NCBI GenBank assembly: GCA_024636215.1
Contig: JAGXHL010000017.1
Location: 62,001-126,000 of the forward strand
From: Deltaproteobacteria bacterium
Lineage (GTDB): Bacteria > Desulfobacterota > Desulfuromonadia > Desulfuromonadales > BM103
Length of the DNA stretch: 64,000 bases
Direction: 5' to 3'
Below the pieces are notes generated by a model. That model was not told the origin of the DNA and made no database searches. It saw nothing but the letters and a program-made list of their open reading frames with translations. Every line of letters begins with the position of its first letter. Position 1 is the stretch's first letter. Below are positions 16,001 to 37,316 of this stretch, piece after piece. The position numbers and the translations under genes are program-made.

Positions 16001-19000
16001 TTAAGCGATGTTGCGCACCGCCTGGTCTCCGAAGCTGCGTTGCAGGTGGCACTGCAGCGCGCTGAGAAAATCTGCCTCACGGTTCTCCCGGTAGACCATG
16101 GAGGATGCAATCTCACTCGCCAGGATAGCGAACAGGTATTTCTCCGGCAGGCGCTTGATGCGGCGGCGGTAACGCTCCTCGGTACGCAACATTTCCGGTA
16201 GATGCGCAAGTATCGCCTTCCTGAAGAGGGGCTTGCCACACAGGTACGCGTGCTTCTGGAAAAAGCCGAAGAGTTGTGCGTAGTGACTGTTGATTTCACG
16301 GCTGATTTCATCAGATATCTCGGTGTAGAGCTTGTTGGCGCCCTGCTCCTTGTGTCGGCGCAGAATCAGCTTGGCCTCGTCATGGGCGCGACGTTCCAGG
16401 ATCTCGATGACATCGGCCACGTAACGATCCTTGTTGGCCATGAACTCCGTGTCGCTGAGCAGCAGGTTGGCGATGATCTCGTAGGAAGATGAAATAACTC
16501 CACATTTGTTGGCTGAAGCGTCGCGCATGATGACCACACCACGATTCTGCAACTCGGTGCGTGCCAAGGGGCTCAGGAAAGAATTGGCCCCTTCAACAAT
16601 CGCCCGGGCTGTTGGTGTGCCATTGTCATCAAGGAACATCTGCCAGTTGCCGTTGTTGATCGTTTCAGGCCTGCCGCCGGCCGGGATAAACAGATCGGTA
16701 TCAACGGTGAAAATTAACTGACCATATTCACGGTAGAAGTCGTCAGGAGAAATCCAGGCTTCGACCAGTCCTGCCTCCGTCATGCTGACTTTCCTGTAGA
16801 GTTGGCGTAAGCCTTGCTTTTGCTGCTGGTTGCGGTAGAGGATGAAGCCTCCGGGGCTCAGGTCTTTTGGCTCGAAGCCCTCGATGTCGTCCTGCAGGAT
16901 GACCTTGCCAAGGGCCTGACGATCTGCGCCCTTCGGGTCGAAGAGGGCTCCGCTGCCATCAACGATCAGGCGCACCTGAATGTTTGGACAACGCTGCAAC
17001 ATCAAGCGCAGGGCGTTGCCGGCAACGTCGCCGTTCGGCCCTCCGGTCAACTTCAGCGAAAAGCTGTCCTCATGCATGTTGATACCGAGGGACTGCATGG
17101 TGATTTCGGCAAATTTGACCACGCCGGTAGACGTCACGCCGTATTCCTTGTGATTGATGCCGACCTTTTTGCTCGAAATCACGCCTGCTCCAAGCAGGTA
17201 TTCGCGTCGGATCGATTGACGGGCGATCAACTCGATCATCTCGTCGTGCATGTTCTCGTCCGGTCCGAGCTCAATCGGCTCGTCTTCGCCATAGTAATCG
17301 ATAACTCTGGGATTCAGAGCTTTACCGTCCCGGGTCACAAAGATATCGAGAAAGGCATTGATGAGACCGTACTGAAGTTTGTAGAGCCGTCGCGTCATCT
17401 TCTCATGATCATCTTCCCTGCCGGCCCGCAAAACGACCCCCATTTTCGAACCGCCTTCATAGATGTCCTTATTCTTCAGATGCTGGGTATGGGCGAGCAC
17501 ATAGACCTCGCGAAACAGAGTATTGGCCGTGGTGACATATTCATCGCGAGAGCGGGTCAGGATGGTGCGCCAGCCGCCCCTGGCAATGTCCGAAAAGCCG
17601 ATATGATAGCCGCTGCCGTGACGGCCGAAAAAGAAGGTGATGCGAAAAGGTCGCTCTGCGGGTAAGCCGGAGGTAAAGCTGTCATCGAGGTCGGTGAGGT
17701 AGGCAGGCGAGATCCGGAAAGCCAGAGCATGCTTTTCAAGGACAAAAAAGTTGGTTTTCAGGGTGTGGCGGATAAATGAAACACAACACTGGAAGATCGT
17801 GCGCCTGAACTCGTCCAGAGCGCTGCGGCCGGTATTGTAGTTGGCAATAATCTTTTCCGTTTCAAGCAGGGTTTCATGATAAAGCGCCTGCTGCTCATGA
17901 TGGTCGGGGTCAAATCGCAGCCGGAACAGTTTGATCAATTGCAGAGTGATGTCCGGGTGCGAGTGGAAGGCCCGTGATACGCCCTCGAGATCGTAGCGGG
18001 GTTGATTGTTGTGGGCGAGGTTGGTATGGCAGAAGGCAATGAAGGCGTTGGTCAGCGAAGCCTCTTCGCCGGTCATGATGCCGGATGCTACGAACTCGCG
18101 GTAGGCTTCGGTTTCAGTACCCAGAATCTGCGTGTTGTAGAGTTCTTTCTGGAGTGTACGGAACAGCTCCGTGCCAGGTTCAAGAAGTTTGTCATCGTCG
18201 GTGCGCACGTAAAAAGTCGCCAGGAAATAGGGATATACACCGGTGTTGATCGTCAGGCAGTAGGAGCGTCTGACCTGAAGGCCCAGTCTCTTCAGGACTT
18301 CCAGGGTCTGGTGCAGGAAGTCTTTTTGTGGTGGATTGGCAACCGCGAAGAGCAGGCGTGATTCGCGTTGTTGCTCGTCACCCTCGGTTTCTTCCGAGGC
18401 CAGGAACACACCGCCGTTATGATTGCCCTGCTGAAAAAGCCAGATGATCTGGGCGACTCGCTTGGCAGGAGAAATGCGCACATAGTTTTCATTGTTGATC
18501 CAGATCATGCGCAGGGCTTCGTCAAAATTGTTAAAGTCGTATTCCGGATAGTGATGACGCAGTTCGGCCATGACCTCTTTGCGGATACGCTTGGGGATGG
18601 TCACTTTCCCTGCATTTCTAACTTCTTCGGGGCTTTTCCTGTCGAACTCGAAACGTTGGATTTCGAGGCGATCTTCGGTTCCTGGCACAGGAGAGAAAGA
18701 GCGGGCCAGGTGTGCATAGGAGATTTCCTTCTCCTGCAGGTTCTTCATAGTCTCGTAGAGAGAACCCGGCCGTGAAAGGCAGGCCAGGATCAGCTTGCGA
18801 TCGGTCTCTGCGAGGATCCTGCGGCGATTGTTCTTAAGCCAGCCCAGCCCGCTGGCAAGATTGGCAATGGCTTCAACTTCTTTCTTCATGGTGATGAAAA
18901 AGTAGGGGTGCATCTGTACCCGCAGCCATTCGAGGTTGTCGGTCGTGCGTCCCAGTTCATCGATGACTGTACGACGGATTTTCTGCAGCATGCGATTGTC

Positions 19001-19018
19001 GACGGCGAGTTCGTTCAT
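16001..19018 (-). CDS. large (about 1000-residue) NAD-type glutamate dehydrogenase
   Basis: A 1005-residue amino-acid dehydrogenase. The catalytic core lies in the middle, with GFSDIARGGWRTILTRSRDE and IYEGGSKMGVVLRAGRED supplying the substrate-binding Lys region. The NAD-binding domain follows, with LKLTGGPNGDVAGNALRLML and AIVEGANSFLSPLARTELQN then RDASANKCGVISSS. Roughly 450 residues precede the core and a helical tail follows, as in the large NAD-specific glutamate dehydrogenases rather than the 450-residue hexameric type. It would oxidise glutamate to 2-oxoglutarate and ammonia in the cytoplasm, the last step of the proline/hydroxyproline route encoded downstream. It is divergent from the first sigma-54 activator gene, sharing a 226-bp intergenic region. 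I saw no sigma-54 promoter on its side. Confidence 0.8.
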   Translation of the reverse strand: MNELAVDNRMLQKIRRTVIDELGRTTDNLEWLRVQMHPYFFITMKKEVEAIANLASGLGWLKNNRRRILAETDRKLILACLSRPGSLYETMKNLQEKEISYAHLARSFSPVPGTEDRLEIQRFEFDRKSPEEVRNAGKVTIPKRIRKEVMAELRHHYPEYDFNNFDEALRMIWINNENYVRISPAKRVAQIIWLFQQGNHNGGVFLASEETEGDEQQRESRLLFAVANPPQKDFLHQTLEVLKRLGLQVRRSYCLTINTGVYPYFLATFYVRTDDDKLLEPGTELFRTLQKELYNTQILGTETEAYREFVASGIMTGEEASLTNAFIAFCHTNLAHNNQPRYDLEGVSRAFHSHPDITLQLIKLFRLRFDPDHHEQQALYHETLLETEKIIANYNTGRSALDEFRRTIFQCCVSFIRHTLKTNFFVLEKHALAFRISPAYLTDLDDSFTSGLPAERPFRITFFFGRHGSGYHIGFSDIARGGWRTILTRSRDEYVTTANTLFREVYVLAHTQHLKNKDIYEGGSKMGVVLRAGREDDHEKMTRRLYKLQYGLINAFLDIFVTRDGKALNPRVIDYYGEDEPIELGPDENMHDEMIELIARQSIRREYLLGAGVISSKKVGINHKEYGVTSTGVVKFAEITMQSLGINMHEDSFSLKLTGGPNGDVAGNALRLMLQRCPNIQVRLIVDGSGALFDPKGADRQALGKVILQDDIEGFEPKDLSPGGFILYRNQQQKQGLRQLYRKVSMTEAGLVEAWISPDDFYREYGQLIFTVDTDLFIPAGGRPETINNGNWQMFLDDNGTPTARAIVEGANSFLSPLARTELQNRGVVIMRDASANKCGVISSSYEIIANLLLSDTEFMANKDRYVADVIEILERRAHDEAKLILRRHKEQGANKLYTEISDEISREINSHYAQLFGFFQKHAYLCGKPLFRKAILAHLPEMLRTEERYRRRIKRLPEKYLFAILASEIASSMVYRENREADFLSALQCHLQRSFGDQAVRNIA

Positions 19019-19072
19019 TGTGACCTTTCCTGTAAAGCCTTTAATGAGGTTGCTAGAGATGCTCAGTGTTTC

Positions 19073-19091: not shown

Positions 19092-19186
19092 AAGGCTGTT
19101 TTTGTAGCGTTTTTTTCCTTTTACGACTGATTCTGTTCCCTCTTACCTTTATGCCGGTACTGTTTTGTGAATAAATGATTCCATAT

Positions 19187-19219
19187 TGCATAATTAATGC
19201 GTTTGTGCATAGAATGCAC
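19187..19219 (+). promoter_or_regulatory. TGCA-repeat motifs upstream of the first sigma-54 activator gene
   Basis: TGCATAATTAATGCG starts at 19187, and a perfect inverted repeat GTGCAT-AGA-ATGCAC spans 19205-19219, 25 bp before the start codon. TGCA-spacer-TGCA motifs of the same kind occur before livK and before the P5C dehydrogenase gene, so this may be an autoregulatory site for one of the activators. This is inference from recurrence only. Confidence 0.4.
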
Positions 19220-19244: not shown

Positions 19245-20987
19245 ATGTCCAGTCCAGATCTTTCAATTGATTTGCAATCGCTCGCCCCGGCCTTTTTAGA
19301 GGCTCTCTCTGTGCCTTTATTGGCGTGTGATCATGAACTGCGCATTGTGTTCAGCAATCCCATGGCTGAAAGCCAACTGAATGCCAGGCCGGGGATGCTT
19401 TTAGCTGAACCTTTGCCTAAATTGGCCGAGGCTGTCGGCAATTTTCGCCGCAGCGCAACGGATAATCCGCCTCTTACAATTCTTCGTGGCACGAGTGCTC
19501 CATACCTGGCTTTACTCAGCAGGGTTAACTCTCCTGCCGGTCCCTTGACGCTTTGTCTTCTGCCCCCCGCGCCGTCGCCTCTCGATGGTGATAAGCGCGT
19601 GCTTGATTTCGAGGCACTGACCCTTGAACTGCAGGCTATTATCGACTCCTCGTCCGATGGGCTGTTTGTCTGTGATGGCGACGCGAATGTCATCCGCGTC
19701 AACCCGGCTTCAGAGAAAATCCATAAACGACCGGCTTCCGAGATGGTCGGCAGGAACATGCGTGAACTGATTCCTGAAGGATTTATTGATCGTTCCGCCG
19801 CACTGGATGCTTGTCTGCAGAAACAAACTGTCAGTTTGCTGCAGACCATGCCAAACAATCGCAAGCTGATTTCCATAGGCACGCCTGTGTTTGACCAGGC
19901 TGGAGAATTGATCCGGGTTGTGGTCAGTGAACGCGACATCACCGAGATCGACACTTTGCAGCGTGAGCTCGAAAACCAGGCGGCGATTAAGGATCAGTTT
20001 CGTCACCAGATGCTGGAGATGCAGCAAACGGAACTTGAAAACCGAAAAATTATTGCCCGCAGCCCGAATATGATCAAGGCCTTGCGCCAGGCGATGCGGG
20101 TGGCTACGGCTGATTCCTCGGTTCTGATCCTCGGTGAGTCGGGCGTCGGCAAAGGCGTGATCGCCGATATGATTCATCGCAACTCCCATCGTGCGGATCG
20201 GCCGCTGATCAAGATCAATTGTGGGGCGATTCCCGAATCGCTGGTCGAAGCAGAGCTCTTTGGTTATGAAAAAGGAGCTTTCACCGGGGCAAGCACCGGC
20301 GGCAAACCGGGACAGTTTGAGTTGGCCAATGAGGGGATTTTGTTTCTCGACGAAGTGGCTGAATTACCCCTGTCAGCTCAGGTGAAACTGCTGCGGTTTC
20401 TTGAAGACGGCAGGATCACCCGGTTAGGAGGCACCGACGAACGTAAGCTTGATGTGCGTGTGCTCGCAGCGACGCATCGTGACCTGGAGGATATGGTTGA
20501 AAAAAGGACCTTCCGTCTCGATCTTTATTATCGCCTCAATGTCATCCCCATACATGTCCCGGCGGTGCGCGAGCGCAAGGACTGTCTGGTCCCCTTGCTC
20601 AGACATTATATCGATCACTTCTCTCGGGTCAACAACGAGTCCAGGCGCTTGTCGCGCGCAGCCATAGACGCTTTGGCCAACTATGCTTTTCCGGGCAACG
20701 TGCGAGAGTTGATGAATATCTGTGAACGACTGGTGGTTATGTCCGAGACCGAAGTGATTGATCTTGTCGACTTGCCGGTGCAGATTGCCGGGAGTGTCAA
20801 GCCACGCTTACCGCAAGAAGTGGATTGGCCCGAAACGGTGACTCTGCAGGAAGCGCTGGAGACGGTTGAGCGCAACCTCCTCAGCAAGGCGCGAGAACGC
20901 TATCGGAGCCAGGCGAGGATTGCCGAAGTGCTCGGCGTAAATCAGTCGACCGTCGCACGCAAGTTGAAGCGTTACGGACTTCTGTGA
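19245..20987 (+). CDS. PAS-containing sigma-54 dependent transcriptional activator (first paralogue)
   Basis: A 580-residue enhancer-binding protein. There are two N-terminal PAS-like regions (about residues 10-110 and 120-235; the second has [20 protein letters not shown]) and an AAA+ core with Walker A GESGVGKG at 297-304. The sigma-54 contact loop GAFTGA is at about 344-349, and a C-terminal Fis/TyrR-type HTH reads QARIAEVLGVNQSTVARKLK. It would sense a small ligand through PAS and open sigma-54 promoters. A strong AAGGAGG precedes the ATG at 19245. It lies between the glutamate dehydrogenase gene and the LIV transporter operon, and its close paralogue at 26957 closes that operon. The ligand is unknown; proline or a pathway intermediate is the contextual guess. 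Confidence 0.93.
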   Translation: MSSPDLSIDLQSLAPAFLEALSVPLLACDHELRIVFSNPMAESQLNARPGMLLAEPLPKLAEAVGNFRRSATDNPPLTILRGTSAPYLALLSRVNSPAGPLTLCLLPPAPSPLDGDKRVLDFEALTLELQAIIDSSSDGLFVCDGDANVIRVNPASEKIHKRPASEMVGRNMRELIPEGFIDRSAALDACLQKQTVSLLQTMPNNRKLISIGTPVFDQAGELIRVVVSERDITEIDTLQRELENQAAIKDQFRHQMLEMQQTELENRKIIARSPNMIKALRQAMRVATADSSVLILGESGVGKGVIADMIHRNSHRADRPLIKINCGAIPESLVEAELFGYEKGAFTGASTGGKPGQFELANEGILFLDEVAELPLSAQVKLLRFLEDGRITRLGGTDERKLDVRVLAATHRDLEDMVEKRTFRLDLYYRLNVIPIHVPAVRERKDCLVPLLRHYIDHFSRVNNESRRLSRAAIDALANYAFPGNVRELMNICERLVVMSETEVIDLVDLPVQIAGSVKPRLPQEVDWPETVTLQEALETVERNLLSKARERYRSQARIAEVLGVNQSTVARKLKRYGLL

Positions 20988-21053
20988 TCTCTTCAGATAT
21001 TTTCCTTTAGGAAACGCTTCTTTCCGCCATGTCGTTCCTGTTTTTTCGCAGTT

Positions 21054-21067
21054 ATGCATTATTGCAT
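21054..21067 (+). promoter_or_regulatory. candidate upstream activator site (TGCA-N4-TGCA) before livK
   Basis: ATGCATTATTGCAT at 21054-21067 lies about 220 bp upstream of the sigma-54 promoter at 21285, a normal enhancer distance. The 460-bp gene-free stretch 20988-21447 otherwise holds a very AT-rich segment (about 21170-21260), suited to bending between enhancer and promoter, and the promoter itself. Confidence 0.4.
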
Positions 21068-21284
21068 GGCATTGTTTGCTGCTCCTGCTCAAGGTCCTCG
21101 GTTTGCCAGTCGAACTCTTTTTGCAAGGGTCTCTTTATGGCGATTACTGGTTTTTCTCTATTCCTAAATTATTGTTTCTTTTTTTATAACTTACTGTAAT
21201 TACATTTACTTTATGATGTCTGATGATTTTTGAATAAAATGATGCAAACGGTTTAATCCTGTTTTTACCAAAATATAACAGAGT

Positions 21285-21301
21285 TTGGCATCAGCCTTGC
21301 T
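21285..21301 (+). promoter_or_regulatory. sigma-54 (-24/-12) promoter of the LIV transporter operon
   Basis: TTGGCATCAGCCTTGCT contains GG at 21287-21288 and GC at 21299-21300, exactly 10 bp apart, and fits the TTGGCAC-N5-TTGCT consensus at nearly every fixed position. It lies 147 bp before livK. Two related copies precede hypD and the P5C dehydrogenase gene. Confidence 0.85.
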
Positions 21302-21447: not shown

Positions 21448-22569
21448 ATGAAAAAGTATCTGGCAACATTTTTGGCCGTGTTCTTTGCAACCGGCACCGT
21501 GTTCGCAGCGGACACTCTCAAGGTTGGTGTTCAGGCTCCTATCACCGGCAGTTACGCCAATGAAGGTCAGGGAATAGAGAACGGAGTACGCTTGCTCGCC
21601 GAGCAGATCAATGCCAAGGGCGGCGTCATGGGCAAGCAGATCGAAGTCATTGTCTGCGATGACCAGGGCACTGCAATGGCCGCCGCAATCTGCGCCAAGG
21701 ATTTGGTGAACAAAGATGTCAAAATGGTTATTGGTTCCTACACCTCGACCTGCGCCGAAGCCGCTCAGAAGACCTACTTCAATGCTGGCGTCCTGCAGAC
21801 TTCCGATGGGACCGCAGACAGCCTGACTGAGAATGGCTACTGGACCTTCCTGCGCAATTCTTTCCCGAACAGCGCCGAAGCACAATTCGCCGCCGAATAC
21901 ATGGTCAACGTCAAGAAGTACGAGCGCATTGCCGTTATCTCTGACTTCTCCACCTACGCTGATGGTCTGGCCAACGCAACCGTTGAAGCCATAAAAGAAC
22001 TGGGTGGCAACGTGGTTTCCCGCGACAAGATCAAGGCTGACTCCCAGAACTTCACTCCGGTTTTAACCAACCTCAAGTCGAAGAACCCTGATGTTATCTT
22101 CTCCGCCGGTTACTACTCCGATGGCGGGCAGCTGCGTTCCCAGCAGATGGCTCTCGGCATCAAGGCTGACTTCATCGGTGGCGACGCCAACGACAACCCG
22201 GACTTCGTCAAGCTGGCCGGCTCGGCTGCCGAAGGCGCGTTCATCATCAACGTCCCTTCTCCGGACGTGCTGCCTTACGAAGTGGCCAAGTCATTCATTG
22301 CTGACTACCAGGAGAAGTACGGTGAAATGCCTCCTTCCATCTGGGGTTTGATGAATATTGACGGTATGCGCGCCATCATTCACGCCATGGAGCAGACCGA
22401 GAGCTTCGATACCAGGAAGGCTGCTGACTACCTGCACAACATGACCGAGCCTCTGCCGGGCATCACCGGTCCGATCGCCTTCGCCAAAGACGGCAATCGC
22501 AAAGGCGGCGCTTATGTGGTCAAGAGAATCCAGGCCGATGGCAGCTACGCCAACGAGTATGTTCAGTAA
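21448..22569 (+). CDS. LIV-type ABC transporter substrate-binding protein
   Basis: A 373-residue periplasmic binding protein with signal peptide MKKYLATFLAVFFATGTVFA. The mature protein begins DTLKVGVQAPITGSYANEGQ, the usual opening of LivJ/LivK-type type I binding proteins, and contains INAKGGVMGKQIEVIVCDDQ and VKMVIGSYTSTCA. It would deliver an amino acid or related zwitterion to the permeases encoded next. Leucine-type specificity cannot be assumed: the sigma-54 promoter shared with the hydroxyproline and proline genes makes an imino acid or peptide-derived amino acid plausible. A GGAG-type site precedes the ATG, and an intercistronic terminator separates it from the permease gene. Confidence 0.9.
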   Translation: MKKYLATFLAVFFATGTVFAADTLKVGVQAPITGSYANEGQGIENGVRLLAEQINAKGGVMGKQIEVIVCDDQGTAMAAAICAKDLVNKDVKMVIGSYTSTCAEAAQKTYFNAGVLQTSDGTADSLTENGYWTFLRNSFPNSAEAQFAAEYMVNVKKYERIAVISDFSTYADGLANATVEAIKELGGNVVSRDKIKADSQNFTPVLTNLKSKNPDVIFSAGYYSDGGQLRSQQMALGIKADFIGGDANDNPDFVKLAGSAAEGAFIINVPSPDVLPYEVAKSFIADYQEKYGEMPPSIWGLMNIDGMRAIIHAMEQTESFDTRKAADYLHNMTEPLPGITGPIAFAKDGNRKGGAYVVKRIQADGSYANEYVQ

Positions 22570-22588
22570 GAACGCCTGATTGTCCCAG

Positions 22589-22622
22589 GGGGCGGAGAAG
22601 AGTCATCTTCCCGCCCCTTTTC
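22589..22622 (+). terminator. intercistronic attenuator hairpin between the binding-protein and permease genes
   Basis: GGGGCGGAGAAGA (22589-22601) pairs with TCTTCCCGCCCC (22606-22617, one bulged base) around GTCA, followed by TTTT. It is a strong intrinsic terminator inside the operon, expected to raise binding protein over membrane components by partial read-through. Confidence 0.8.
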
Positions 22623-22746
22623 ATTAGCTCTTCTGAATATGTAAACGTTGCGCTGCGAAAACTGCCCCTCGGGCGCGAGCGGAGAACAGCTTTGTCCTCC
22701 TCTGGCGTCTGCAAGGCAGCTGGTCTACCAAACCCGGAGAAGTTTT

Positions 22747-23643
22747 ATGGACACTTTTTTTCAACAGCTAGCGAACGGCCTGACCATCGGCAGCATGTTT
22801 GCTTTGGTGGCGCTCGGCTACACCATGGTCTACGGCGTCATGAAATTGATCAACTTTGCTCATGGCGACATGGTTGCGGCCTCGGCATTTGTCGGTCTGA
22901 CCATCTATACCCAGGTGATGGGCCAGGCGACCTCTCTGGTCGCAGTTGTCGTCATCTTCCTGCTGACTGCGGTGGTTATGGCGATTGTCGGCATTCTTCT
23001 CGAACGGATTGCTTATCGTCCGTTACGCGAAGCGCCGCGCTTGTCGGCCGTGGTCTCGGCACTTGGCGCATCGCTGGTTATTCAGAACGGTATTATGCTG
23101 ATCTGGGGCCCGCGGATGCGGATCTTCCCGGAGTTGGTGCCTCAGGTCTACTGGAATTTCGGCGGTGTTGTGATCAGTATGATCCAGGTCATCATCCTGG
23201 TTTTGTCTCTGTTCCTGATGGTCGCGCTCTACCTGTTCGTCGAAAAGACCCGCATGGGCGCGGCAATTCGTGCTTCCTCCATTGACCAGGATGCAGCACG
23301 CCTGATGGGCATCAACGTTAACAGCGTCATTGCTCTGATCTTTATTATCGGCTCTTCTCTCGGAGCCGTCGGTGGCCTGTTTATCGGCCTCTACTATCGA
23401 GGTATCACCTTCAACATGGGTTGGCAATACGGTCTCTACGCCTTTATTGCCGCGATCCTCGGTGGTATCGGCAACATCCCGGGCGCCATGCTCGGCGGCA
23501 TGCTGCTCGGCCTGTTCAACGCTTTTATCGCCGGGTACGTGTCCAGTACCTGGGCCGACGCCTTTACCTTTATCATGTTGATCTTAATCCTGATTGTCCG
23601 CCCGACCGGTATCCTCGGTGAGCGGGTCGCGGAGAAAGTCTGA
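22747..23643 (+). CDS. livH: LIV-type ABC transporter permease (LivH family)
   Basis: A 298-residue inner-membrane permease with about eight hydrophobic helices. It starts MDTFFQQLANGLTIGSMFAL followed by VALGYTMVYGVMKLINFAHG, the near-invariant N-terminus of LivH, and ends with GGIGNIPGAMLGGMLLGLFN, which includes the cytoplasmic coupling region. The ATG at 22747 was chosen because MDTFF is the family start; the longer frame adds 33 residues of non-membrane sequence. It pairs with the next gene to form the translocation pore. Its stop and the next start share one base (TGATG). Substrate specificity is inferred only from the operon. Confidence 0.93.
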   Translation: MDTFFQQLANGLTIGSMFALVALGYTMVYGVMKLINFAHGDMVAASAFVGLTIYTQVMGQATSLVAVVVIFLLTAVVMAIVGILLERIAYRPLREAPRLSAVVSALGASLVIQNGIMLIWGPRMRIFPELVPQVYWNFGGVVISMIQVIILVLSLFLMVALYLFVEKTRMGAAIRASSIDQDAARLMGINVNSVIALIFIIGSSLGAVGGLFIGLYYRGITFNMGWQYGLYAFIAAILGGIGNIPGAMLGGMLLGLFNAFIAGYVSSTWADAFTFIMLILILIVRPTGILGERVAEKV

Positions 23644-24599
23644 TGAAAGAGTTACAGAAATTTTCCTATCCGATCTTCTTCGTCGTCATGGCGGTTCTGC
23701 CGCACATGCTTGACGATCGTTGGCAGGCGGTGGCGATCACATTCCTGATCTTTGCTGTGGTGGCTCTGTCGCAGGACATCATTCTTGGCAAAAGCGGCAT
23801 GTTCAACATGGGCCAGGCCCTGTTTTTTGGTATGGGCGCCTACACCACGGCGATCCTCAACAACGAATACGGTTGGTCAATCATTGCCACGATTCCGCTG
23901 GCGGTCATTATCCCGGCCGTGTTCGGCATCCTTCTGGCCGGACCGATCGTGCACCTGCGCGGTGACTACCTGCTGGTCGTTACCATCGGCTTCAACATTG
24001 TTTTTGTTCAGGTCCTGCAGAACAACCTTGGCGGTGTGACCGGCGGGCCAAACGGCATCTTCGGCCTAGATTCGTTGAGCTTTTTGGGCTTTGACCTGAT
24101 GAGCCAGATTTCGGTTTACTATTTTGCCTTTATTGTTCTTCTATTGACCCTCTGGGTGATGCGCAACCTGGCAGGGAGTAAACCGGGGCGTGCTCTGCAC
24201 TACCTGAGAGAAGATCAGCTGGCGGCGGAAAGTATCGGCATCAACACCCGCATCTACAAAATCTTCGCCTTCGGCCTGGGTGCCGGGATTGCCGGACTGG
24301 CCGGAACCGTCTATGCCACCCAGTATTCAGCCGTCAGCCCAGAGGCCTTCGAATTTATCCAGTCGGTCCTCTTCTTCAGTATTGTGCTGGTTGGTGGCTC
24401 TTCGGTGCCGGGAGTCCTGATCGGGGTGTTCGTAATGTTCGTGCTGCCGGAGATCTTCCGCGAGTTTGCCACCTGGCGGTATTTCATCTTCGGTTTTGCG
24501 ATGATCGCTGCGATGATTTTGCGGCCACGTGGTATCTGGCCGGCCACTTTCGGTAAAATCCCCAAGTTCTTGATCAAGGAAAATAACCATGGCGCGTAA
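23643..24599 (+). CDS. livM: LIV-type ABC transporter permease (LivM family)
   Basis: The second permease, 318 residues. It has about nine to ten hydrophobic helices with LSQDIILGKSGMFNMGQALF and FGMGAYTTAILNNEYGWSII near residues 40-80 and LREDQLAAESIGINTRIYKI, the LivM coupling helix, near residue 185. The C-terminal helices contain VGGSSVPGVLIGVFVMFVLP. It forms a heterodimer with LivH in the inner membrane. It overlaps the ATPase gene livG by 11 bp, so translation is coupled. No truncation or frameshift is visible. Confidence 0.93.
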   Translation: MKELQKFSYPIFFVVMAVLPHMLDDRWQAVAITFLIFAVVALSQDIILGKSGMFNMGQALFFGMGAYTTAILNNEYGWSIIATIPLAVIIPAVFGILLAGPIVHLRGDYLLVVTIGFNIVFVQVLQNNLGGVTGGPNGIFGLDSLSFLGFDLMSQISVYYFAFIVLLLTLWVMRNLAGSKPGRALHYLREDQLAAESIGINTRIYKIFAFGLGAGIAGLAGTVYATQYSAVSPEAFEFIQSVLFFSIVLVGGSSVPGVLIGVFVMFVLPEIFREFATWRYFIFGFAMIAAMILRPRGIWPATFGKIPKFLIKENNHGA

Positions 24600-28925: not shown

Positions 28926-28940
28926 ACGCAGGCGTTAGCA
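28884..28940 (+). other. attC-like integron recombination site
   Basis: A 57-bp imperfect palindrome. CCCAAC near 28885-28890 mirrors GTTAGCA at 28934-28940 (R''/R' core boxes). GCGTTCCAGG (28894-28903) mirrors CCTGAACGC (28921-28929) as L''/L' with one extra base, and a small central hairpin is formed by CGCT-GGAC-AGCG. The layout follows the order of a folded bottom-strand attC. The R' box departs from GTTRRRY at its last variable position, so it may be decayed. The next gene starts 22 bp after it. Confidence 0.5.
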
Positions 28941-28961
28941 CGACACGAGGAATCTGATTTC

Positions 28962-29540: not shown

Positions 29541-29618
29541 GGATGCGGGGGCTGTCCCCTTCCCCGAATTTCTCACATCGCGCCTGACAGGTGCTCACAG
29601 AGGCGAAGGTTCGAGGCG

Positions 29619-30320: not shown

Positions 30321-30645
30321 AGGACTCCCCCTGGTGCTGTTCCAATATTTCTGGTTGCGGTAAGCCGGTAGTCGTCAACCGAGGCTCCTTATTCTCCTAT
30401 TCTAGAACCCTTGACGGTGATGTCAATTGAGTGACCGTCCCTCTTTCCTGGCATTGCTGTTAACCTGATCCGCGCGTTGGTTACCTGCTCCATCAGAGAG
30501 CTGTGGTTCTTATGTATTTATCCATCTGTGAATATAGTATACAAAAGTGAATAAAAAGAGTATGGCCGATGACTTTTTCTTTATTCCTCGATCTATAAAG
30601 CCTAATGAATAGAGTGATTTGCAACTGATTCGGGATTCTTCATGC

Positions 30646-30662
30646 TTGGTATTCTTCTTGCT
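30646..30662 (+). promoter_or_regulatory. sigma-54 (-24/-12) promoter of the hydroxyproline dehydratase operon
   Basis: TTGGTATTCTTCTTGCT has GG at 30648-30649 and GC at 30660-30661, 10 bp apart, with the TTGCT box intact and TTGGYA at -24. It lies 155 bp before hypD in the 496-bp gene-free stretch 30321-30816. The rest of that stretch holds AT-rich sequence with TATGTATTTATCCAT near 30511 and GTATAC near 30537, but no gene. Confidence 0.75.
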
Positions 30663-30816: not shown

Positions 30817-33273
30817 ATGTCAAAAGATAGAGAGTTAAAAGTGGTCCCACAACGGCAGCCCGCTGCCGAGGGAAATTTTTATTCGCCAAGCAACAACGCC
30901 ATAGGTCCGGGGATGAATGAGCGGATCCAGCGCCTGCGCAAGTTGAGCGTTGAGACGGAGCCGAGCCTGTCGATTGAGCGTGCTCTGCATGAGACCGCTT
31001 TTTATAAAGAGCATTACGGCAAGCACTCGACTCCGATGCTGAGAGCTCTGAATTTCCTCGACCACTGTCAGAAGAAAACCCTCTATATCGGTGATGATGA
31101 ATTGATCGTCGGCGAACGTGGGCCTCGACCTAAGTCAGTACCGACCTTTCCTGAGCTGACCTGTCATAGCGTCGAGGATTTCCATGTGCTCAACACCCGT
31201 GATCAGCAACGTTACACCATCAGTGATGAAGATGTCGCGACCTACGCCCGCGAGGTGATACCTTACTGGCAGGGCAAGACGATTCGTGAGCGCATCTTCA
31301 GTCACGTTCCTGAGGAATGGCGGGCGGCTTACGAGGCCGGGCTTTTTACCGAATTCATGGAGCAGCGAGCACCCGGGCATACCGCTCTCGATGGCCAGAT
31401 CTATCGCAAGGGCATGCTTGATTTCAAAAGACAGATTGCAGGTGAAATCGAAGGGCTTGATTATCTGAACGATCCGGAGGCGACCGATAAGGCCGAACAA
31501 CTCAAGGCGATGGACGTTGCCTGTGATGCTGTAATCGTCTTTGCCGAACGCCATGCAGACCTTGCTGAAGACCTGGCCGCAAAAGACAGTGATCCACAGC
31601 GGGTTGCGGAATTGCATAGGATTGCCGAGGTCTGTCGCCGGGTTCCTGCCAGGGCACCGCGAAGCTTCCATGAAGCGATCCAGATGTACTGGTTTGTCCA
31701 CCTTGGCACCATTACCGAGCTCAATGGCTGGGACGCCATGAACCCCGGTCACTTCGATCAGCACCTGGCGCCTTTCTACAAGGCGGAGCTTGCCGCCGGC
31801 AGCTTGACCCGAGAACAGGCCAAGCAGTTGCTCTGCTGTTTCTGGATCAAGGTCAACAACCACCCAGCGCCACCCAAGGTTGGTATTACCGCCCGCGAGA
31901 GCGGCACCTATAACGATTTCACCAATATCAATATTGGCGGTATCACCAGCGAGGGCAAGGACGGCGTCAGTGAGGTCTCCTATCTCATGCTCGAAGTCGT
32001 TGAAGAATTGCACATTCTGCAGCCGGGCAATTCCGTGCATGTCAGCAGCAAGACGCCGGATCGTTTCCTCGAGGCGGCCTGCAAGGTGATTCGCCAGGGA
32101 CATGGTTATCCGTCCATCTTTAACCCGGATGTTTATGTCGTGGAGCTGCTGCGCCAGGGCAAGTCGCTTAAGGATGCCCGCGAAGGTGGCTGCAGCGGTT
32201 GCATCGAAGTCGGTGCCTTCGGCAAGGAGGCCTATGTTCTGACCGGCTATCTGAACGTGCCGAAAATCCTTGAGGTGACTCTGAATAACGGCATCGATCC
32301 GGTGACCGGTAACAAGGCAGGTATCGAGACGGGCGATCCGTGTGATTTTACCTGTTACCAGGAGCTCTACGATGCTTTCAACAGACAGCTGAATTTTATT
32401 GTCGACACCAAGGTGAGAGTCAGCAACTACATTGATCGCATGTTCGCCAAATACGCGCCGGCCCCTTTCCTTTCTGTGGTGATTGAGGATTGTATCAGCA
32501 AGGGCAGGGATTATTACGACGCCGGGCCGCGCTATAACACCAACTACATTCAGTGTACCGGACTCGGTACGACCACAGACAGCCTCTCGGTGCTTAAGAA
32601 GCATGTGTTCGAAGAAAAGACCTTCGGTATGGCGCAACTCCTCAACGCGGTGGCCAATAATTTCGAAGGTGAAGAGTTTGTGCGGCAAACGGTGCTCAAC
32701 AGGACTCCGTTTTTCGGCAATGATGACGGTTTTGCCGATGATATCGCCTTGCAGGTTTACGCCGACCTGTTTGCTGCTATCGACGGTAAGCCGAATGTCA
32801 AGGGCGAGACGTTCCATCTCAATATGCTCTCCACGACCTGTCATATCTATTTCGGCAAGGTGATGGGGGCGACGCCGAACGGACGCCTGGCAGGCAAGTC
32901 GATCTCCGACGGCACCTCACCCTCCCATGGTGCTGACACTCACGGACCGTCCGCAGTCATTCGCTCGCTGACCAAGCTTGATCACACCTTGTCGGGAGGG
33001 ACGCTGCTGAACCAGCGCTTTCTGCCGAGCCTGCTCAAGCGGGAGGAGGATGTTGCACGTTTAGGCCAGTTGGTGCGCAGCTATTTCACCCTGGGTGGGC
33101 ATCATATCCAGTTTAATATTGTCGATACGGCGACTTTGAAGGCGGCTCAGGAGACACCTGAGGACTATAAAGACCTGTTGGTGCGTATGGCCGGTTACAG
33201 TGATTACTTCAACGACATGAACGCCGATCTGCAGCAGGAAGTGGTTGAGCGCACAGAAAACGAGTCTTTTTGA
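30817..33273 (+). CDS. hypD: glycyl-radical trans-4-hydroxy-L-proline dehydratase (HypD-like)
   Basis: An 818-residue glycyl-radical enzyme. The thiyl radical Cys462 and general base Glu464 lie in GGCSGCIEVGAFGKEAYVLT, and the glycyl radical is Gly793 in VRMAGYSDYF. The C-x-E pair marks the dehydratase/eliminase group. The surrounding text (FMEQRAPGHT, IQMYWFVHLG, LNGWDAMNPG, NHPAPPKVGITARES, TCHIYFGKVMGA) agrees closely with the clostridial HypD I remember. HypD removes water from trans-4-hydroxy-L-proline to give pyrroline-5-carboxylate. Its activase follows, and P5C dehydrogenase and proline dehydrogenase genes lie downstream. About 30 extra N-terminal residues precede the family start. 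GAAGAGG precedes the ATG, and a sigma-54 promoter lies 155 bp upstream. Activity on another substrate cannot be excluded by reading. Confidence 0.85.
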   Translation: MSKDRELKVVPQRQPAAEGNFYSPSNNAIGPGMNERIQRLRKLSVETEPSLSIERALHETAFYKEHYGKHSTPMLRALNFLDHCQKKTLYIGDDELIVGERGPRPKSVPTFPELTCHSVEDFHVLNTRDQQRYTISDEDVATYAREVIPYWQGKTIRERIFSHVPEEWRAAYEAGLFTEFMEQRAPGHTALDGQIYRKGMLDFKRQIAGEIEGLDYLNDPEATDKAEQLKAMDVACDAVIVFAERHADLAEDLAAKDSDPQRVAELHRIAEVCRRVPARAPRSFHEAIQMYWFVHLGTITELNGWDAMNPGHFDQHLAPFYKAELAAGSLTREQAKQLLCCFWIKVNNHPAPPKVGITARESGTYNDFTNINIGGITSEGKDGVSEVSYLMLEVVEELHILQPGNSVHVSSKTPDRFLEAACKVIRQGHGYPSIFNPDVYVVELLRQGKSLKDAREGGCSGCIEVGAFGKEAYVLTGYLNVPKILEVTLNNGIDPVTGNKAGIETGDPCDFTCYQELYDAFNRQLNFIVDTKVRVSNYIDRMFAKYAPAPFLSVVIEDCISKGRDYYDAGPRYNTNYIQCTGLGTTTDSLSVLKKHVFEEKTFGMAQLLNAVANNFEGEEFVRQTVLNRTPFFGNDDGFADDIALQVYADLFAAIDGKPNVKGETFHLNMLSTTCHIYFGKVMGATPNGRLAGKSISDGTSPSHGADTHGPSAVIRSLTKLDHTLSGGTLLNQRFLPSLLKREEDVARLGQLVRSYFTLGGHHIQFNIVDTATLKAAQETPEDYKDLLVRMAGYSDYFNDMNADLQQEVVERTENESF

Positions 33274-33341
33274 AACTTTTAACGCAAAGTGGGGCAAGGC
33301 GCAGAGGGCCCCAGCTTTAATATTCTTTGGGGTTAATGATA

Positions 33342-34250
33342 ATGCAAAAACCCTTGGTGTTCGATATCAAGCGTTACTCGATCAATGATGGCCCGGGCAT
33401 CCGGGCCACCATTTTCTTTAAAGGCTGCCCGCTTAACTGTCGGTGGTGCCATAACCCTGAAAGTATCTCGCCGAAAGTCCAAAAGCTTTTTACGGCGGCC
33501 AAATGTATCGGCTGCGGAGAGTGCTGTCGGGTTTGTCCTGTCGGCGCGTGCAGCTTGACTGCTCAGGGTGTGGTTACTGACGCCGGACTCTGTACCCTCT
33601 GCGGACAATGTGCCGAAGTCTGCCCGACGCTGGCTAGCGAGATGTCGGGACGTTATTACTCGATTGGGGAGCTATTGGAGGTGATTGAAAAAGAGCGGCC
33701 TTTTTTTGATCAATCCGGTGGCGGTGTCACCTTCTCCGGAGGCGAGCCTCTGCTCTATCCGGAGTTCCTGATCGAACTGCTCAAGGCCTGCGGCAGGCAA
33801 GGCATTCATAGAGCCATTGATACTTCGGGTTTTGTCAAACGGCAGGTTCTGCTCGCAGTAGCAGAGCACACGGATCTGTTCCTGTATGACTTGAAGATGG
33901 TTGATGCGGAACCACACAAGCGCTACACGGGTGTTGATAATCAATTGATTCTCGATAACCTGAAGGCCTTGGCTGAGCATGGTTCGGAGATCCAGGTGCG
34001 GATTCCTCTGCTCGGTGGAGTCAATGATGATGACGACAGTGTCACTGCCATGGCCGCATTTGTGGCTGGGTTACCTGGAGAGAAGCGCGGGGTGAGCCTG
34101 CTGCCCTTCCATGATGTCGCCAGGGGGAAGGACCAGAAGCTTGGCCAGCAACGCGATCTTTCAGTACTGCGTACCCCGGATGAAGATGTTTTACAAGGGG
34201 TGATCACTCTCTTTGCTCGGTACGGTTTGACAGCAACTGTTGGTGGCTGA
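33342..34250 (+). CDS. hypE: glycyl-radical enzyme activase (radical SAM), HypE-like
   Basis: A 302-residue radical-SAM protein that would install the glycyl radical on the adjacent dehydratase. The SAM-cluster motif is C29-x3-C33-x2-C36 in KGCPLNCRWCHNPES. A ferredoxin-like insert with two further clusters follows (CIGCGECCRVCPVGAC and CTLCGQCAEVCP, about residues 55-100), as in activases of the PFL-like dehydratase group. VTFSGGEPLLYPEFL is the SAM-binding GGEP motif. I chose the ATG at 33342; an ATG at 33336 and a TTG at 33327 are in frame. It follows hypD by 68 bp and is presumably co-transcribed. Confidence 0.92.
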   Translation: MQKPLVFDIKRYSINDGPGIRATIFFKGCPLNCRWCHNPESISPKVQKLFTAAKCIGCGECCRVCPVGACSLTAQGVVTDAGLCTLCGQCAEVCPTLASEMSGRYYSIGELLEVIEKERPFFDQSGGGVTFSGGEPLLYPEFLIELLKACGRQGIHRAIDTSGFVKRQVLLAVAEHTDLFLYDLKMVDAEPHKRYTGVDNQLILDNLKALAEHGSEIQVRIPLLGGVNDDDDSVTAMAAFVAGLPGEKRGVSLLPFHDVARGKDQKLGQQRDLSVLRTPDEDVLQGVITLFARYGLTATVGG

Positions 34251-34264: not shown

Positions 34265-34386
34265 ATGCGATAGTGCATCACAAAAGGTTTGAAAATATAT
34301 TATCTATTTCTGCATAAATACATAAATACAAATATTAACAGTATGTTAAAAATATTAAGTCGTTGTCTTTTATGCATTTATGCATG
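34265..34386 (+). promoter_or_regulatory. cluster of TGCA-type candidate activator sites before the P5C dehydrogenase gene
   Basis: ATGCGATAGTGCAT (34265-34278), a TGCATAAATACA half-site (from 34311) and TATGCATTTATGCATG (34371-34386) lie in the AT-rich part of the 451-bp gene-free stretch 34251-34701, 210-330 bp upstream of its sigma-54 promoter. The spacing and motif resemble those before livK. They may be enhancer sites for the paired activators; this is inference. Confidence 0.4.
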
Positions 34387-34593
34387 TATTTATTGTTCTT
34401 GATAACCCTCTGCTTTGGCTTTTCCCCGTCCCTGCAAAAAAACCTGTTCAGCCCGTCAATTTTTTCTGAGGGTAGATCTTTCGTTTCAGTTCTTTAAAAG
34501 TCATTATTTTCAGCAGGTTAGCCATGAGTTATGCTCGGTGTGGTGGTTGCGTTCAGGCGAATTCAGCTTGCTCCGACGATGGTAAAGCGTCGC

Positions 34594-34610
34594 TTGGCAT
34601 CTTGCTTGCT
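34594..34610 (+). promoter_or_regulatory. sigma-54 (-24/-12) promoter of the P5C dehydrogenase/proline dehydrogenase operon
   Basis: TTGGCATCTTGCTTGCT has GG at 34596-34597 and GC at 34608-34609, 10 bp apart, and differs from the livK promoter only inside the N5 spacer. Its position shows that the reading frame upstream of 34702 is not translated. Confidence 0.85.
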
Positions 34611-34701: not shown

Positions 34702-36345
34702 ATGAATCTGTTGAATAATGCCATCCTTAAAGTTCCAACCCCTGTCAATGAGCCCGTCTACAATTATGCCCCGGGGACTCCGCAGCGCGATCAGCTCAAG
34801 GCGGCGATTGAAGAAATCAGCAACAAGAAAGTTGAGATTCCCCTGATTATCGGTGGAAAAGAAGTTCGCACCGGCAACATGGGACAGGTTGTCATGCCGC
34901 ATGATCACAAGCATGTTCTCGGTGAGTATCACCTGGCGGGTGAAAAAGAGATCAACATGGCTATTGATGCCGCCATGGCCGCCAAGCAGGATTGGGCCAA
35001 CCTGCGCTGGGAGGAGCGCGCCGCGATCTTCCTCAAGGCTGCTGAACTCCTGTCGGGCAAGTATCGCTACATTATGAATGCGGTCAGTATGCTTTCGACC
35101 AGCAAGAGTTCCTTTCAGGCTGAAATCGATGCCGCTTGCGAGCTGATCGACTTTTTACGTTTCAACGTATATTACGCGCAGCAGGTTTACAGCGATCAGC
35201 CAATGTATTCTTCCAAAGGTCTGTGGAACTTCGTGCAGCAGCGTCCTCTGGAAGGTTTCGTGTTTGCCGTCGCACCCTTTAATTTTACGGCGATTGCAGG
35301 AAACCTGGCGACCGCACCTGCCATTATGGGCAATACGATTCTGCTCAAGCCGGCTTCGTCCTGTGTTTATACGCCTTACATCCTGATGCAGATACTTAAA
35401 GAGGCCGGGATGCCTGACGGCGTCATCAACTTCGTGCCGGGCCCCGGTTCCATGGTTGGCAAGGCCTGTCTTGATCATAAAGATCTTGGCGGAATTCATT
35501 TTACCGGTTCGACGGGCGTCTTCCACCAGATGTGGCAGACCGTTGGCAACAATATCGCCAGGTACAAGTCTTATCCGCGCATCGTTGGTGAAACCGGCGG
35601 CAAGGATTTCATCGTGGCCCATAACAGCGCCAATGTTGAACAGTTGACGACCGCGATTATCCGCGGCGCCTTTGAATTCCAGGGCCAGAAATGTTCTGCG
35701 GCCTCCCGTGCCTACATTCCGAAATCCCTCTGGGGTCCGATCCGTGAAAAACTCGAAACCGATATGGCCTCAATCAAAATGGGACCGACCAGCGACTTCA
35801 GCAACTTCTTTAACGCAGTTATTGATAAATCGGCCTTTGCAACGATTACCGAATTTATCGATTACGCCAAAGCGGCTTCCGATGCCGAAGTCATCATCGG
35901 TGGTGGGTACGATGACAGCAAGGGCTACTTCATCGAGCCGACTGTGATCTTGACCAGTAACCCGCATTTCCGCACCATGGAAGAAGAGATCTTCGGACCG
36001 GTTATGACGATCTATGTTTATGAAGATGAGAAGTACGAGGCAACTCTCGAACTCTGTGACCAGACTTCGATCTATGCCCTGACCGGCGCTGTGTTTGCTA
36101 CCGACCGTGCAGCCGTCAGCCTGGCACTGAGCAAGCTGGAAAATGCCGCAGGCAACTTCTACATCAATGACAAACCGACCGGTGCCGTAGTTGGTCAGCA
36201 ACCCTTCGGTGGAGCCCGCGCGTCAGGCACCAACGACAAGGCCGGCTCTTACCTGAACCTGGTCCGCTGGGTGTCGCCGCGCACCATCAAGGAAACCTTT
36301 GATGCGCCGACCCACTTCGCTTACCCCTTTATGGATGCTGAATAA
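34702..36345 (+). CDS. L-glutamate gamma-semialdehyde (P5C) dehydrogenase
   Basis: A 547-residue aldehyde dehydrogenase of the P5C dehydrogenase group. It oxidises glutamate semialdehyde (ring-opened P5C) to glutamate with NAD. The catalytic Cys331 is in FEFQGQKCSAASRAYIP and the activating Glu297 is in IVGETGGKDF; PFNFTAIAGNLATAPAIMGN and FGPVMTIYVYEDEKYEAT are typical of the 1-pyrroline-5-carboxylate group. The ATG at 34702 (AAGG upstream, protein MNLLNNAILKVPTPVNEP) is chosen because the longer frame runs through the sigma-54 promoter. A GC hairpin without T run separates it from the proline dehydrogenase gene. Together they replace the bifunctional PutA. Confidence 0.93.
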   Translation: MNLLNNAILKVPTPVNEPVYNYAPGTPQRDQLKAAIEEISNKKVEIPLIIGGKEVRTGNMGQVVMPHDHKHVLGEYHLAGEKEINMAIDAAMAAKQDWANLRWEERAAIFLKAAELLSGKYRYIMNAVSMLSTSKSSFQAEIDAACELIDFLRFNVYYAQQVYSDQPMYSSKGLWNFVQQRPLEGFVFAVAPFNFTAIAGNLATAPAIMGNTILLKPASSCVYTPYILMQILKEAGMPDGVINFVPGPGSMVGKACLDHKDLGGIHFTGSTGVFHQMWQTVGNNIARYKSYPRIVGETGGKDFIVAHNSANVEQLTTAIIRGAFEFQGQKCSAASRAYIPKSLWGPIREKLETDMASIKMGPTSDFSNFFNAVIDKSAFATITEFIDYAKAASDAEVIIGGGYDDSKGYFIEPTVILTSNPHFRTMEEEIFGPVMTIYVYEDEKYEATLELCDQTSIYALTGAVFATDRAAVSLALSKLENAAGNFYINDKPTGAVVGQQPFGGARASGTNDKAGSYLNLVRWVSPRTIKETFDAPTHFAYPFMDAE

Positions 36346-36353
36346 TATCAATC

Positions 36354-36374
36354 GGGGGCAGTTAAACTGCCCCC
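36354..36374 (+). other. intercistronic hairpin between the P5C dehydrogenase and proline dehydrogenase genes
   Basis: GGGGGCAG (36354-36361) pairs with CTGCCCCC (36367-36374) around TTAAA. The following bases (ATTAAATT) do not form a U tract, so it is more likely an RNA-stabilising or processing element than a terminator. Confidence 0.6.
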
Positions 36375-36401
36375 ATTAAATTCACTGGGTTGGAGGACAT
36401 C

Positions 36402-37316
36402 ATGTCCATTTTTAATTTTCTTGTTTCAAAGACGATCATGCATGTGCCGGGACCGATCGTTGGTTTTTTTGCCAAGGGTTACATTGCCGGAGAAGACCTA
36501 GGCGCGGCAGTCAGAACCACGAAAAAGCTCAACAGCGACGGGATGGTTGCAACGATCGACATCCTTGGTGAGTTCATCAAAACAAAAGAAGAAGCCAATT
36601 TCTTCAAGCAGCAGTGTCTGGAGATTCTTCAAGGGATCGACAAGGAAAAAATCGATGCCAACCTTTCTCTCAAGCCCACTCAATTGGGCCTGGCACTTGA
36701 CAAACCGTTCGCATTCGAAAATATCCGCGAGATCGTTACCCTGGCGGCGAGCCTGAACAATTTTGTCCGTATCGATATGGAAGATCACCCCTGTACTGAT
36801 GACACCCTTGAATTCTTCCGCACCCTGCGTGAGGAGTTTCCGGGCCATGTCGGCGTGGTCGTCCAATCTTATCTGCGCCGCACCCTCGATGACATCGAGG
36901 CTTTAAGCGATGGCCTTCTCAACTTCAGGCTTTGTAAAGGAATTTATAACGAGCCGCGCGAGATCGCTTACAAGGACATGACGATCATCAACCGTAATTT
37001 CGTTGAATGTCTTAAAAAAATGTTCGAGAAGGGCGCCTATGTCGGTATCGCCACGCATGATGAAAAGCTGGTTTACGAATCGGAACAACTGATCAAGCAA
37101 TTTGGGCTGAAGCGTGAAGAATACGAGTTCCAGATGCTGCTCGGAGTGGACCCTGAATTGCGTAGCATGCTTGTCAAGGCTGGCCACCGTTTACGGGTGT
37201 ATGTACCCTACGGCAAATCATGGCTGCCTTATTCCAAACGTCGCCTTAAGGAAAATCCGAGCATCGCCCAGCATGCTCTGAGACAGATGCTCGGCATGAA
37301 GTCAAAATCGGTCTGA
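36402..37316 (+). CDS. proline dehydrogenase (monofunctional)
   Basis: A 304-residue flavoenzyme that oxidises proline to pyrroline-5-carboxylate and passes electrons to quinones. The TIM-barrel motifs are present: VRIDMEDHPCTDDTLEFF, VVVQSYLRRTLDDIEALSDG, FRLCKGIYNEPREIAYKD, GIATHDEKLVYESEQL, EFQMLLGVDPELR and, near the end, LRVYVPYGKSWLPYSKRRLK with the substrate-binding YxxRR-type segment. The length matches the short bacterial PRODH. GGAGG lies upstream of the ATG at 36402. It follows the P5C dehydrogenase gene by 56 bp and ends at a strong terminator, closing the operon. Confidence 0.93.
   Translation: MSIFNFLVSKTIMHVPGPIVGFFAKGYIAGEDLGAAVRTTKKLNSDGMVATIDILGEFIKTKEEANFFKQQCLEILQGIDKEKIDANLSLKPTQLGLALDKPFAFENIREIVTLAASLNNFVRIDMEDHPCTDDTLEFFRTLREEFPGHVGVVVQSYLRRTLDDIEALSDGLLNFRLCKGIYNEPREIAYKDMTIINRNFVECLKKMFEKGAYVGIATHDEKLVYESEQLIKQFGLKREEYEFQMLLGVDPELRSMLVKAGHRLRVYVPYGKSWLPYSKRRLKENPSIAQHALRQMLGMKSKSV

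Follow-up and report, generated by a model that had tools for sequence, protein, structure and literature searches.

A 64 kb stretch of a Deltaproteobacteria bacterium genome (contig JAGXHL010000017.1, positions 62,001 to 126,000; 54.6% G+C), called the window in this text, carries a gene cluster around hypD, the gene of a glycyl-radical dehydratase for trans-4-hydroxy-L-proline. We consider it likely that this cluster is the regulon with which a Desulfuromonadales-type anaerobe breaks down hydroxyproline and proline, that pyrroline-5-carboxylate (P5C) is oxidised to glutamate in the process and that two sigma-54 activators exert control. Judged from its genes, the cluster probably lets the bacterium use hydroxyproline without oxygen by conversion to glutamate. 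The central features are the following (positions in the window):

19245..20987 (+), sigma-54 activator A, PrdR-like, with a PAS domain and the recognition helix NQST
21448..26080 (+), LivJHMGF-type amino-acid ATP-binding cassette (ABC) transporter of the branched-chain type, five genes
26957..28372 (+), sigma-54 activator B, PrdR-like, with a PAS domain and the recognition helix SQPT
30817..33273 (+), hypD, with C462-x-E464 and G793
33327..34250 (+), putative HypD activase, a radical S-adenosylmethionine (SAM) protein
34702..36345 (+), L-glutamate gamma-semialdehyde (P5C) dehydrogenase (P5CDH), ALDH4 type
36390..37316 (+), monofunctional proline dehydrogenase (PRODH)

In the proposed pathway, the radical-SAM activase would turn on HypD, which would then dehydrate trans-4-hydroxy-L-proline to (S)-P5C, and PRODH would convert proline to the same compound. 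P5C would open by hydrolysis to glutamate semialdehyde. The P5CDH family converts this semialdehyde to glutamate, and here the oxidation would proceed with NAD(P)+. The glutamate would flow into central metabolism, and the PRODH electrons may pass to quinone and an external acceptor. Activator A, acting on TTATGCA-N4-TGCATAA, would drive P5CDH-PRODH and the ABC transporter, and activator B, acting on TTATTCA-N4-TGAATAA, would drive hypD. For the C. difficile enzyme, (S)-P5C has been established as the HypD product (PMC7077986).

Identity of the enzymes

The genes were assigned by NCBIfam and Pfam profile scans of the window proteins. By every sequence test made, the glycyl-radical enzyme is HypD. 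It passed the cut-off of NF043068 (1174 bits, E = 0; cut-off 1100), and the 11 other NCBIfam models listed for it were all below their own cut-offs. Among solved structures, C. difficile HypD (6vxc) scored 962 bits and the next enzyme 491 bits; 395 of 792 aligned positions (49.9%) are identical to the C. difficile protein. A small tree grouped the two with support 1.0 and kept them separate from glycerol dehydratase, HpsG and the glycyl-radical enzyme 9rco. All ten tested residues are kept (H188, D306, S362, D367, F368, C462, E464, Y478, T673 and G793), with C462, E464 and G793 aligning to C. difficile C434, E436 and G765. They are the residues mutated in an eLife 2020 study (PMC7077986), and they are conserved in all 80 related hypD loci, the best 80 of 577, which were fetched by similarity to the window HypD. 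A structure model built with 14 close sequences reached a mean pLDDT (predicted local distance difference test) of 47 and was discarded; what is said of the active site is based on the alignment to the solved enzyme.

The best family of the activase is the HypD activase NF043069 (343.8 bits, below the cut-off of 425), and its start is probably the ATG at 33336 or 33342. A relative directly follows hypD in 71 of the 80 loci; some of the remaining loci end there. P5CDH exceeded the TIGR01236 cut-off (787 versus 614 bits) and scored 625 bits to the solved enzyme 4idm. Homology and the predicted promoter at 34595 place its start near 34702 and make the open reading frame start at 34531 too early. 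The highest-scoring solved relatives of PRODH are monofunctional proline dehydrogenases (2ekg, 208 bits). Its residues 28-299 align to 2ekg, and the substrate-pocket Tyr in RVYVPYG matches the Thermus Tyr; with 249 bits it did not reach the cut-off of 500 of the Thermus-type model NF045947. The best models for the LivJHMGF proteins likewise did not pass their cut-offs.

The first-pass annotation had described a glycyl-radical enzyme close to HypD, its activase, monofunctional P5CDH and PRODH genes and an ABC transporter. The open reading frames lie where it placed them and these assignments hold up, apart from the early P5CDH start and with the activase scoring under its family cut-off. Neither a grouping with other glycyl-radical enzymes nor a loss of HypD residues, which it had named as grounds for giving up the HypD assignment, was found in the scores, the small tree or the alignment. 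Its inventory missed proC, the two sigma-54 activators and the predicted promoters, and also passed over a MATE-fold protein and two EamA transporters downstream (37425-40629).

The hypD genes nearest to that of the window among named genome contigs (91% identity) are those of a Deltaproteobacteria metagenome-assembled genome (MAG; L001) and of strain IMCC39146 (L002); next come contigs labelled Desulfuromonadales, Geobacteraceae, Desulfuromusa and Malonomonas. Since cultured, named relatives (L015, L023, L026) carry the genes, the claim is testable. Three MAGs labelled Xanthomonadales or Lysobacterales (L018, L022, L029) contain hypD genes 82-84% identical to that of the window; in L022 and L029, a P5CDH gene of 81-83% identity lies 10 kb and 3.5 kb from hypD, respectively. 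These cases reflect either wrong binning or transfer. In a Desulforhopalus MAG, hypD reads with an in-frame stop (L077:4051-6477), and a 47% identical PRODH adjoins its activase.

Co-occurrence of HypD and P5CDH

We compared 136 genomes of the order of strain IMCC39146, including Malonomonas rubra (G002), Desulfuromusa kysingii (G003) and Pelovirga terrestris (G004). HypD was over its cut-off in 44 genomes, and 14 more join them if partial genes scoring no less than 1.3 bits per position are counted; TIGR01236 P5CDH was over its cut-off in 55, plus 8 partial genes with at least 1.1 bits per position. With partial genes counted, 54 genomes had both, 4 HypD only, 9 P5CDH only and 69 neither (Fisher 1.9e-23), that is, P5CDH was present in 54 of 58 genomes with HypD and in 9 of 78 without it. 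The cut-offs alone gave 36, 8, 19 and 73 in the same order (8.6e-12); both P values are too small because genomes related by descent were treated as independent. A threshold of 1.3 for both genes shifts one genome (G058), giving 53, 5, 9 and 69.

In 23 genomes hypD and P5CDH share a contig, 1.4 to 54 kb apart and always on the same strand (23/23); three further same-strand linkages (G003, G051, G107) are obtained if gene ends at contig edges count. PRODH directly follows P5CDH in the regions read. The D-proline reductase PrdA was over its cut-off in none of the 136 genomes, a set that does not include the genome of the window, with weak partial hits in 2.

Predicted promoters and palindromic sites

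Three perfect matches to the -24/-12 element of sigma-54 promoters occur in the window, before livJ (21286), before P5CDH (34595) and at 58056. Over the whole window, elements with up to 2 mismatches were not above chance (63 found, 72 expected); their position and their conservation are what speaks for these promoters. When up to 1 mismatch was allowed, 19 of 27 close loci (L001-L027 and L034, minus L006) had such an element in the 400 bases preceding hypD. None of 51 other loci had one, 2 of the 80 were too short upstream to be scored, and random 400-base stretches contained one in 2.6% of cases. TGGTA variants of the element are known to function: Table 2 of a Bacillus thuringiensis study has TTGGTACGTATTTTGCA under RocR (PMC4428206).

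A spaced word-pair count over 45 such promoters (24 of hypD, 21 of P5CDH) found pairs in up to 26, compared with 7 or 8 in six shuffles. Two palindromes emerged, a T-type (TTATTCA-N4-TGAATAA) at hypD and a G-type (TTATGCA-N4-TGCATAA) at P5CDH and livJ. The predicted elements in the window are:

21286..21301 (+), sigma-54 promoter predicted for livJHMGF, no mismatches
30647..30662 (+), sigma-54 promoter predicted for hypD, one mismatch
34595..34610 (+), sigma-54 promoter predicted for P5CDH-PRODH, no mismatches; the same kind lies near the P5CDH start in relatives
21052..21069, predicted G-type site upstream of livJ, 2 mismatches
30518..30554, two tandem predicted T-type sites upstream of hypD, 2 mismatches each
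34300..34387, predicted G-type sites before P5CDH (34300, 34308, 34370), 2 mismatches each
19176..19212, two weak predicted G-type sites between a glutamate dehydrogenase gene and activator A, 3 of 14 mismatches

Allowing up to 3 of 14 mismatches, and taking as promoters those with a sigma-54 element, a T-type site was found in 24 of 24 hypD promoters (with the best one 99-132 bases upstream of the element) and a G-type site in 22 of 22 P5CDH promoters and 5 of 6 livJ elements, counts that are partly circular because the motifs were discovered in these same promoters. Random 350-base stretches contained a site of either type in 6.8% of cases, and 12 of 50 regions (500 bases) upstream of hypD in other lineages also had one. 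The difference in site type between the hypD and P5CDH promoters is not imposed by motif discovery: the best match was T-type in 18 hypD promoters and G-type in none (6 ties), and G-type in 20 P5CDH promoters and T-type in 1 (1 tie). At up to 2 mismatches such sites were not rare in five whole genomes, which contained 8-15 G-type sites (3-8 in a backward control) and 10-20 T-type sites (4-13 in the control). The sole perfect G-type site of G006 and the best one of G002 both lie before P5CDH, and the sole perfect T-type site of G002 lies before hypD.

The PrdR site of Clostridiales, TGT-N10-12-ACA, was not enriched before the three promoters (0, 1 and 0 found). We also tried the word TTATGYATT. 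Its four occurrences in the window all fall within the three upstream regions that had suggested it, and relatives have it in 5 of 49 promoters (3/23 hypD, 2/21 P5CDH, 0/5 livJ) versus 1.2% of shuffles; it was replaced by the dyad count. G-type sites near the start of activator A (G066:C1:793667, G006:C122:43004 and 19176-19212 of the window) fit a possible autoregulation.

Two PrdR-like activators

Activators A and B reached 398 and 346 bits to NF041552, whose cut-off is 795, and are thus relatives and not members of PrdR. The 39 activator sequences collected, several of them from the same genome, split into two groups. All 19 B-type sequences have SQPT in the recognition helix. Among the 20 A-type sequences, 18 have NQST, one TQAT (L014) and one SQPT (L096); the activators of L024 and L085, which midpoint rooting puts on the B side and the drawing shows as basal, were counted as A-type. 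L096 is also the only case in which the T-type palindrome is preferred at the P5CDH promoter. Over the 15 genomes in which both could be read, the window included, helix type agrees with site type in 14, L096 among them, with one tie (L102). As there is only one independent switch (L096), this match is suggestive and not proof of the pairing. The two paralogous activators seem to switch the hydroxyproline and the proline parts separately, with these two compounds as the presumed inducers.

Gene order and neighbouring genes

The layout was read in 20 stretches chosen for linked hypD and P5CDH, and in G021. The recurring order is activator A, a sigma-54 element, P5CDH, PRODH, LivJHMGF, Usp, often activator B, hypD, activase, a MATE-like gene and two EamA genes. 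P5CDH-PRODH stands just behind the activase, with its own promoter, in the window and in the relatives nearest to it (L002, L089, L090, L092 and others), apparently by rearrangement. In L096, by comparison, P5CDH, PRODH, LivJHMGF, Usp, HypD, activase, MATE-like and two EamA genes follow on one strand, and hypD has no second sigma-54 element; L024 is identical in layout. With this arrangement hypD could be transcribed together with the oxidation genes. L097 resembles L096 as far as its contig reaches, with the activase preceding a HypD that is just 52% identical. The 53 loci L028-L080 come almost entirely from other lineages, L034 being a member of the close group; in 50 of them the activase lies within 7 kb of hypD, and no other neighbour cluster recurs in more than 5.

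The neighbours of the central genes in the window are:

14169..14993 (+), proC, pyrroline-5-carboxylate reductase (TIGR00112, 293 bits; cut-off 197)
15083-15862, a further gene between proC and the glutamate dehydrogenase gene
16001..19018 (-), NAD-type glutamate dehydrogenase (GDH) of 1005 amino acids (PF05088, 87 bits; PF00208, 84 bits)
26126..26932 (+), universal-stress-protein domain protein (Usp, PF00582), often found after LivF
37491..38804 (+), MATE-fold membrane transporter, behind hypD-activase in many close relatives
38829..40629 (+), two EamA/DMT transporters (PF00892), usually with the MATE-like gene

In order, the window reads proC, the 15083-15862 gene, GDH (opposite strand), activator A, LivJHMGF, Usp and activator B, then three unrelated genes, hypD, activase, P5CDH, PRODH, the MATE-fold gene and the EamA pair. 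The three unrelated genes (28369-30320) encode a protein with a tRNA-binding domain, a uracil-DNA glycosylase and an M48 peptidase. The MATE-fold protein has no match in Pfam and NCBIfam. Its structure model (pLDDT 89) gave a query-normalised Foldseek TM score of 0.69-0.81, and the top 12 PDB hits were all of MATE/MOP type, mostly at 14-15% identity. Export of excess amino acid or uptake is a possible role for it and the EamA pair. On the opposite strand, a sodium symporter of the acetate/monocarboxylate type (41757-43685; best model MctC, 430 bits, cut-off 670) has no obvious tie to the cluster. Scans of the window for RNA families and tRNA found none.

The first-pass annotation had included the large GDH in the pathway. 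The gene is indeed present, and its membership was overrated: a GDH of this 1005-residue type is found no more than 10 kb from hypD or PRODH in 3 of 58 HypD genomes (G070, G107 and G071, the last being the same as L019), so we rejected it as a regular member. Many genomes have a relative of about 1600 amino acids located elsewhere. At the matching place of the close relative G001, only the first 77 GDH residues are left (G001:C62:33086-33316, 79% identical), which is probably a recent loss. The step from glutamate to 2-oxoglutarate therefore requires no gene of the cluster.

Alternative explanations

The most serious alternative is that HypD serves proline supply, with ProC reducing P5C for protein synthesis or osmoprotection in the clostridial manner and P5CDH-PRODH being merely a neighbouring proline-degradation operon. 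We regard this as unlikely. In its favour, ProC reduces the HypD product in C. difficile (PMC9044972), and enzymes of the P5C node often share a neighbourhood. No proC was found in the 80 hypD loci, many of which end early; when contigs were compared by eye, proC shared the hypD contig in 10 of 58 HypD genomes, the nearest at 8.3 kb, and in the window it is 15.8 kb upstream of hypD and not adjoining. Moreover, HypD occurrence tracks P5CDH, PrdA is not over its cut-off in the order, and the PRODH of the same cluster would reverse the reduction by ProC. It is far less probable that PRODH and P5CDH act on hydroxyproline itself to give 4-hydroxyglutamate and that the glycyl-radical enzyme has another substrate. 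The mammalian hydroxyproline route does employ PRODH- and P5CDH-class enzymes, and the genes of both are linked to hypD here. PutA opens to hydroxyproline upon loss of its substrate-pocket Tyr; the PRODH of the window has kept this residue, which disfavours hydroxyproline as its substrate, and HypD retains all ten catalytic and binding residues tested. That the enzyme is another eliminase for diols, choline or sulfonates in an incidental neighbourhood is hardly credible: the C-x-E motif is shared by eliminases in general, whereas the distance in score to the next solved enzyme, the grouping with C. difficile HypD in a tree with three other glycyl-radical enzymes and the scores of the other 11 listed models, each under its cut-off, all speak for HypD.

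Several observations weigh against oxidation of P5C to glutamate under the control of the two activators. In the stretches covered, no P5CDH lies close to hypD in Bacteroidota and other lineages, except in L029. Four HypD genomes lack P5CDH (G016, G024, G064, G081; small assemblies of 1.4-2.2 Mb, G016 holding a PRODH fragment), nine have P5CDH and no HypD, and the co-occurrence counts ignore shared ancestry. No sigma-54 element precedes hypD in 8 of the 27 close loci. In addition to the partial circularity of the site counts, the two types overlap at 3 mismatches: a G-type site can also be called in 20 of 24 hypD promoters and a T-type site in 12 of 22 P5CDH promoters. In G066 the perfect T-type site is located elsewhere, and in G018 there is no T-type site near hypD at up to 2 mismatches. 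Since hypD and P5CDH apparently are under different activators, they need not be co-induced. Finally, proC is near the cluster in the window and on the same strand within 5 kb of P5CDH in 12 of the 55 genomes with P5CDH over the cut-off, which weakens a reading of oxidation only; part of the P5C may be reduced to proline. The oxidation of P5C to glutamate, as the first-pass annotation had proposed, is thus favoured by co-occurrence, linkage and the PrdA result, with reduction left as a possible second outlet.

A fuller picture, to which we give even chances, is that in this order hydroxyproline and proline are respired through a shared P5C-to-glutamate step and sensed separately by duplicated activators, whose recognition helices (SQPT and NQST) have changed together with their palindromes, the latter by one base per arm. 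In most lineages hypD would be under its own activator, and the branches would have been fused and split by rearrangement.

Comparison with known systems

What appears to be new here is the proposed connection of HypD to oxidative instead of Stickland proline metabolism, and a predicted sigma-54 promoter each for hypD, P5CDH-PRODH and the ABC operon. The ability of P5C to serve as a carbon and nitrogen source had already been stated (PMC7077986). The first-pass annotation knew of no described case with this layout. In the literature searched, no title or abstract opening was found that describes HypD with P5CDH here, though papers on hypD neighbourhoods were not covered and an earlier mention is possible; the layout is not unique to the window and recurs in this order. 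Hydroxyproline, the amino acid characteristic of collagen, enters anoxic sediments with animal remains. Most work on HypD concerns its role in the gut, where it channels hydroxyproline back to proline for Stickland fermentation. If our reading is true, sediment bacteria of the metal- and sulfur-reducing type burn hydroxyproline as a carbon and nitrogen source by means of the same radical enzyme. The cluster would also provide a small natural example of a duplicated activator, open to joint tests of the protein helix and the DNA site.

With the HypD-ProC system of C. difficile and other gut clostridia, the cluster shares the dehydratase with its ten tested residues, the adjoining activase and P5C as the expected product. 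It differs in that the order lacks a D-proline reductase over the cut-off, proC is not beside hypD, P5CDH-PRODH is linked instead, and control is predicted to lie with two sigma-54 activators that have related but distinct sites. As in classical putBA/PutA systems, PRODH adjoins P5CDH and proline would lead to glutamate; here, however, the enzymes are separate, P5CDH is of the ALDH4 type and the P5C pool would also be supplied by an oxygen-sensitive dehydratase. The route described for marine Colwellia (PMC7883544) likewise uses collagen hydroxyproline as food in marine settings, but it runs over other intermediates, with a 4-hydroxyproline epimerase, a D-hydroxyproline dehydrogenase and 2-oxoglutarate semialdehyde, and enters at 2-oxoglutarate and not at P5C. 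The control of proline reductase by PrdR and sigma-54 in Clostridiales is similar in placing PAS-type, PrdR-related activators beside proline metabolism (PMC6615313). Compared with the account given there, the activators of the window score below the PrdR cut-off, their predicted targets are oxidative, and TTATGCA or TTATTCA arms take the place of TGT-N10-12-ACA.

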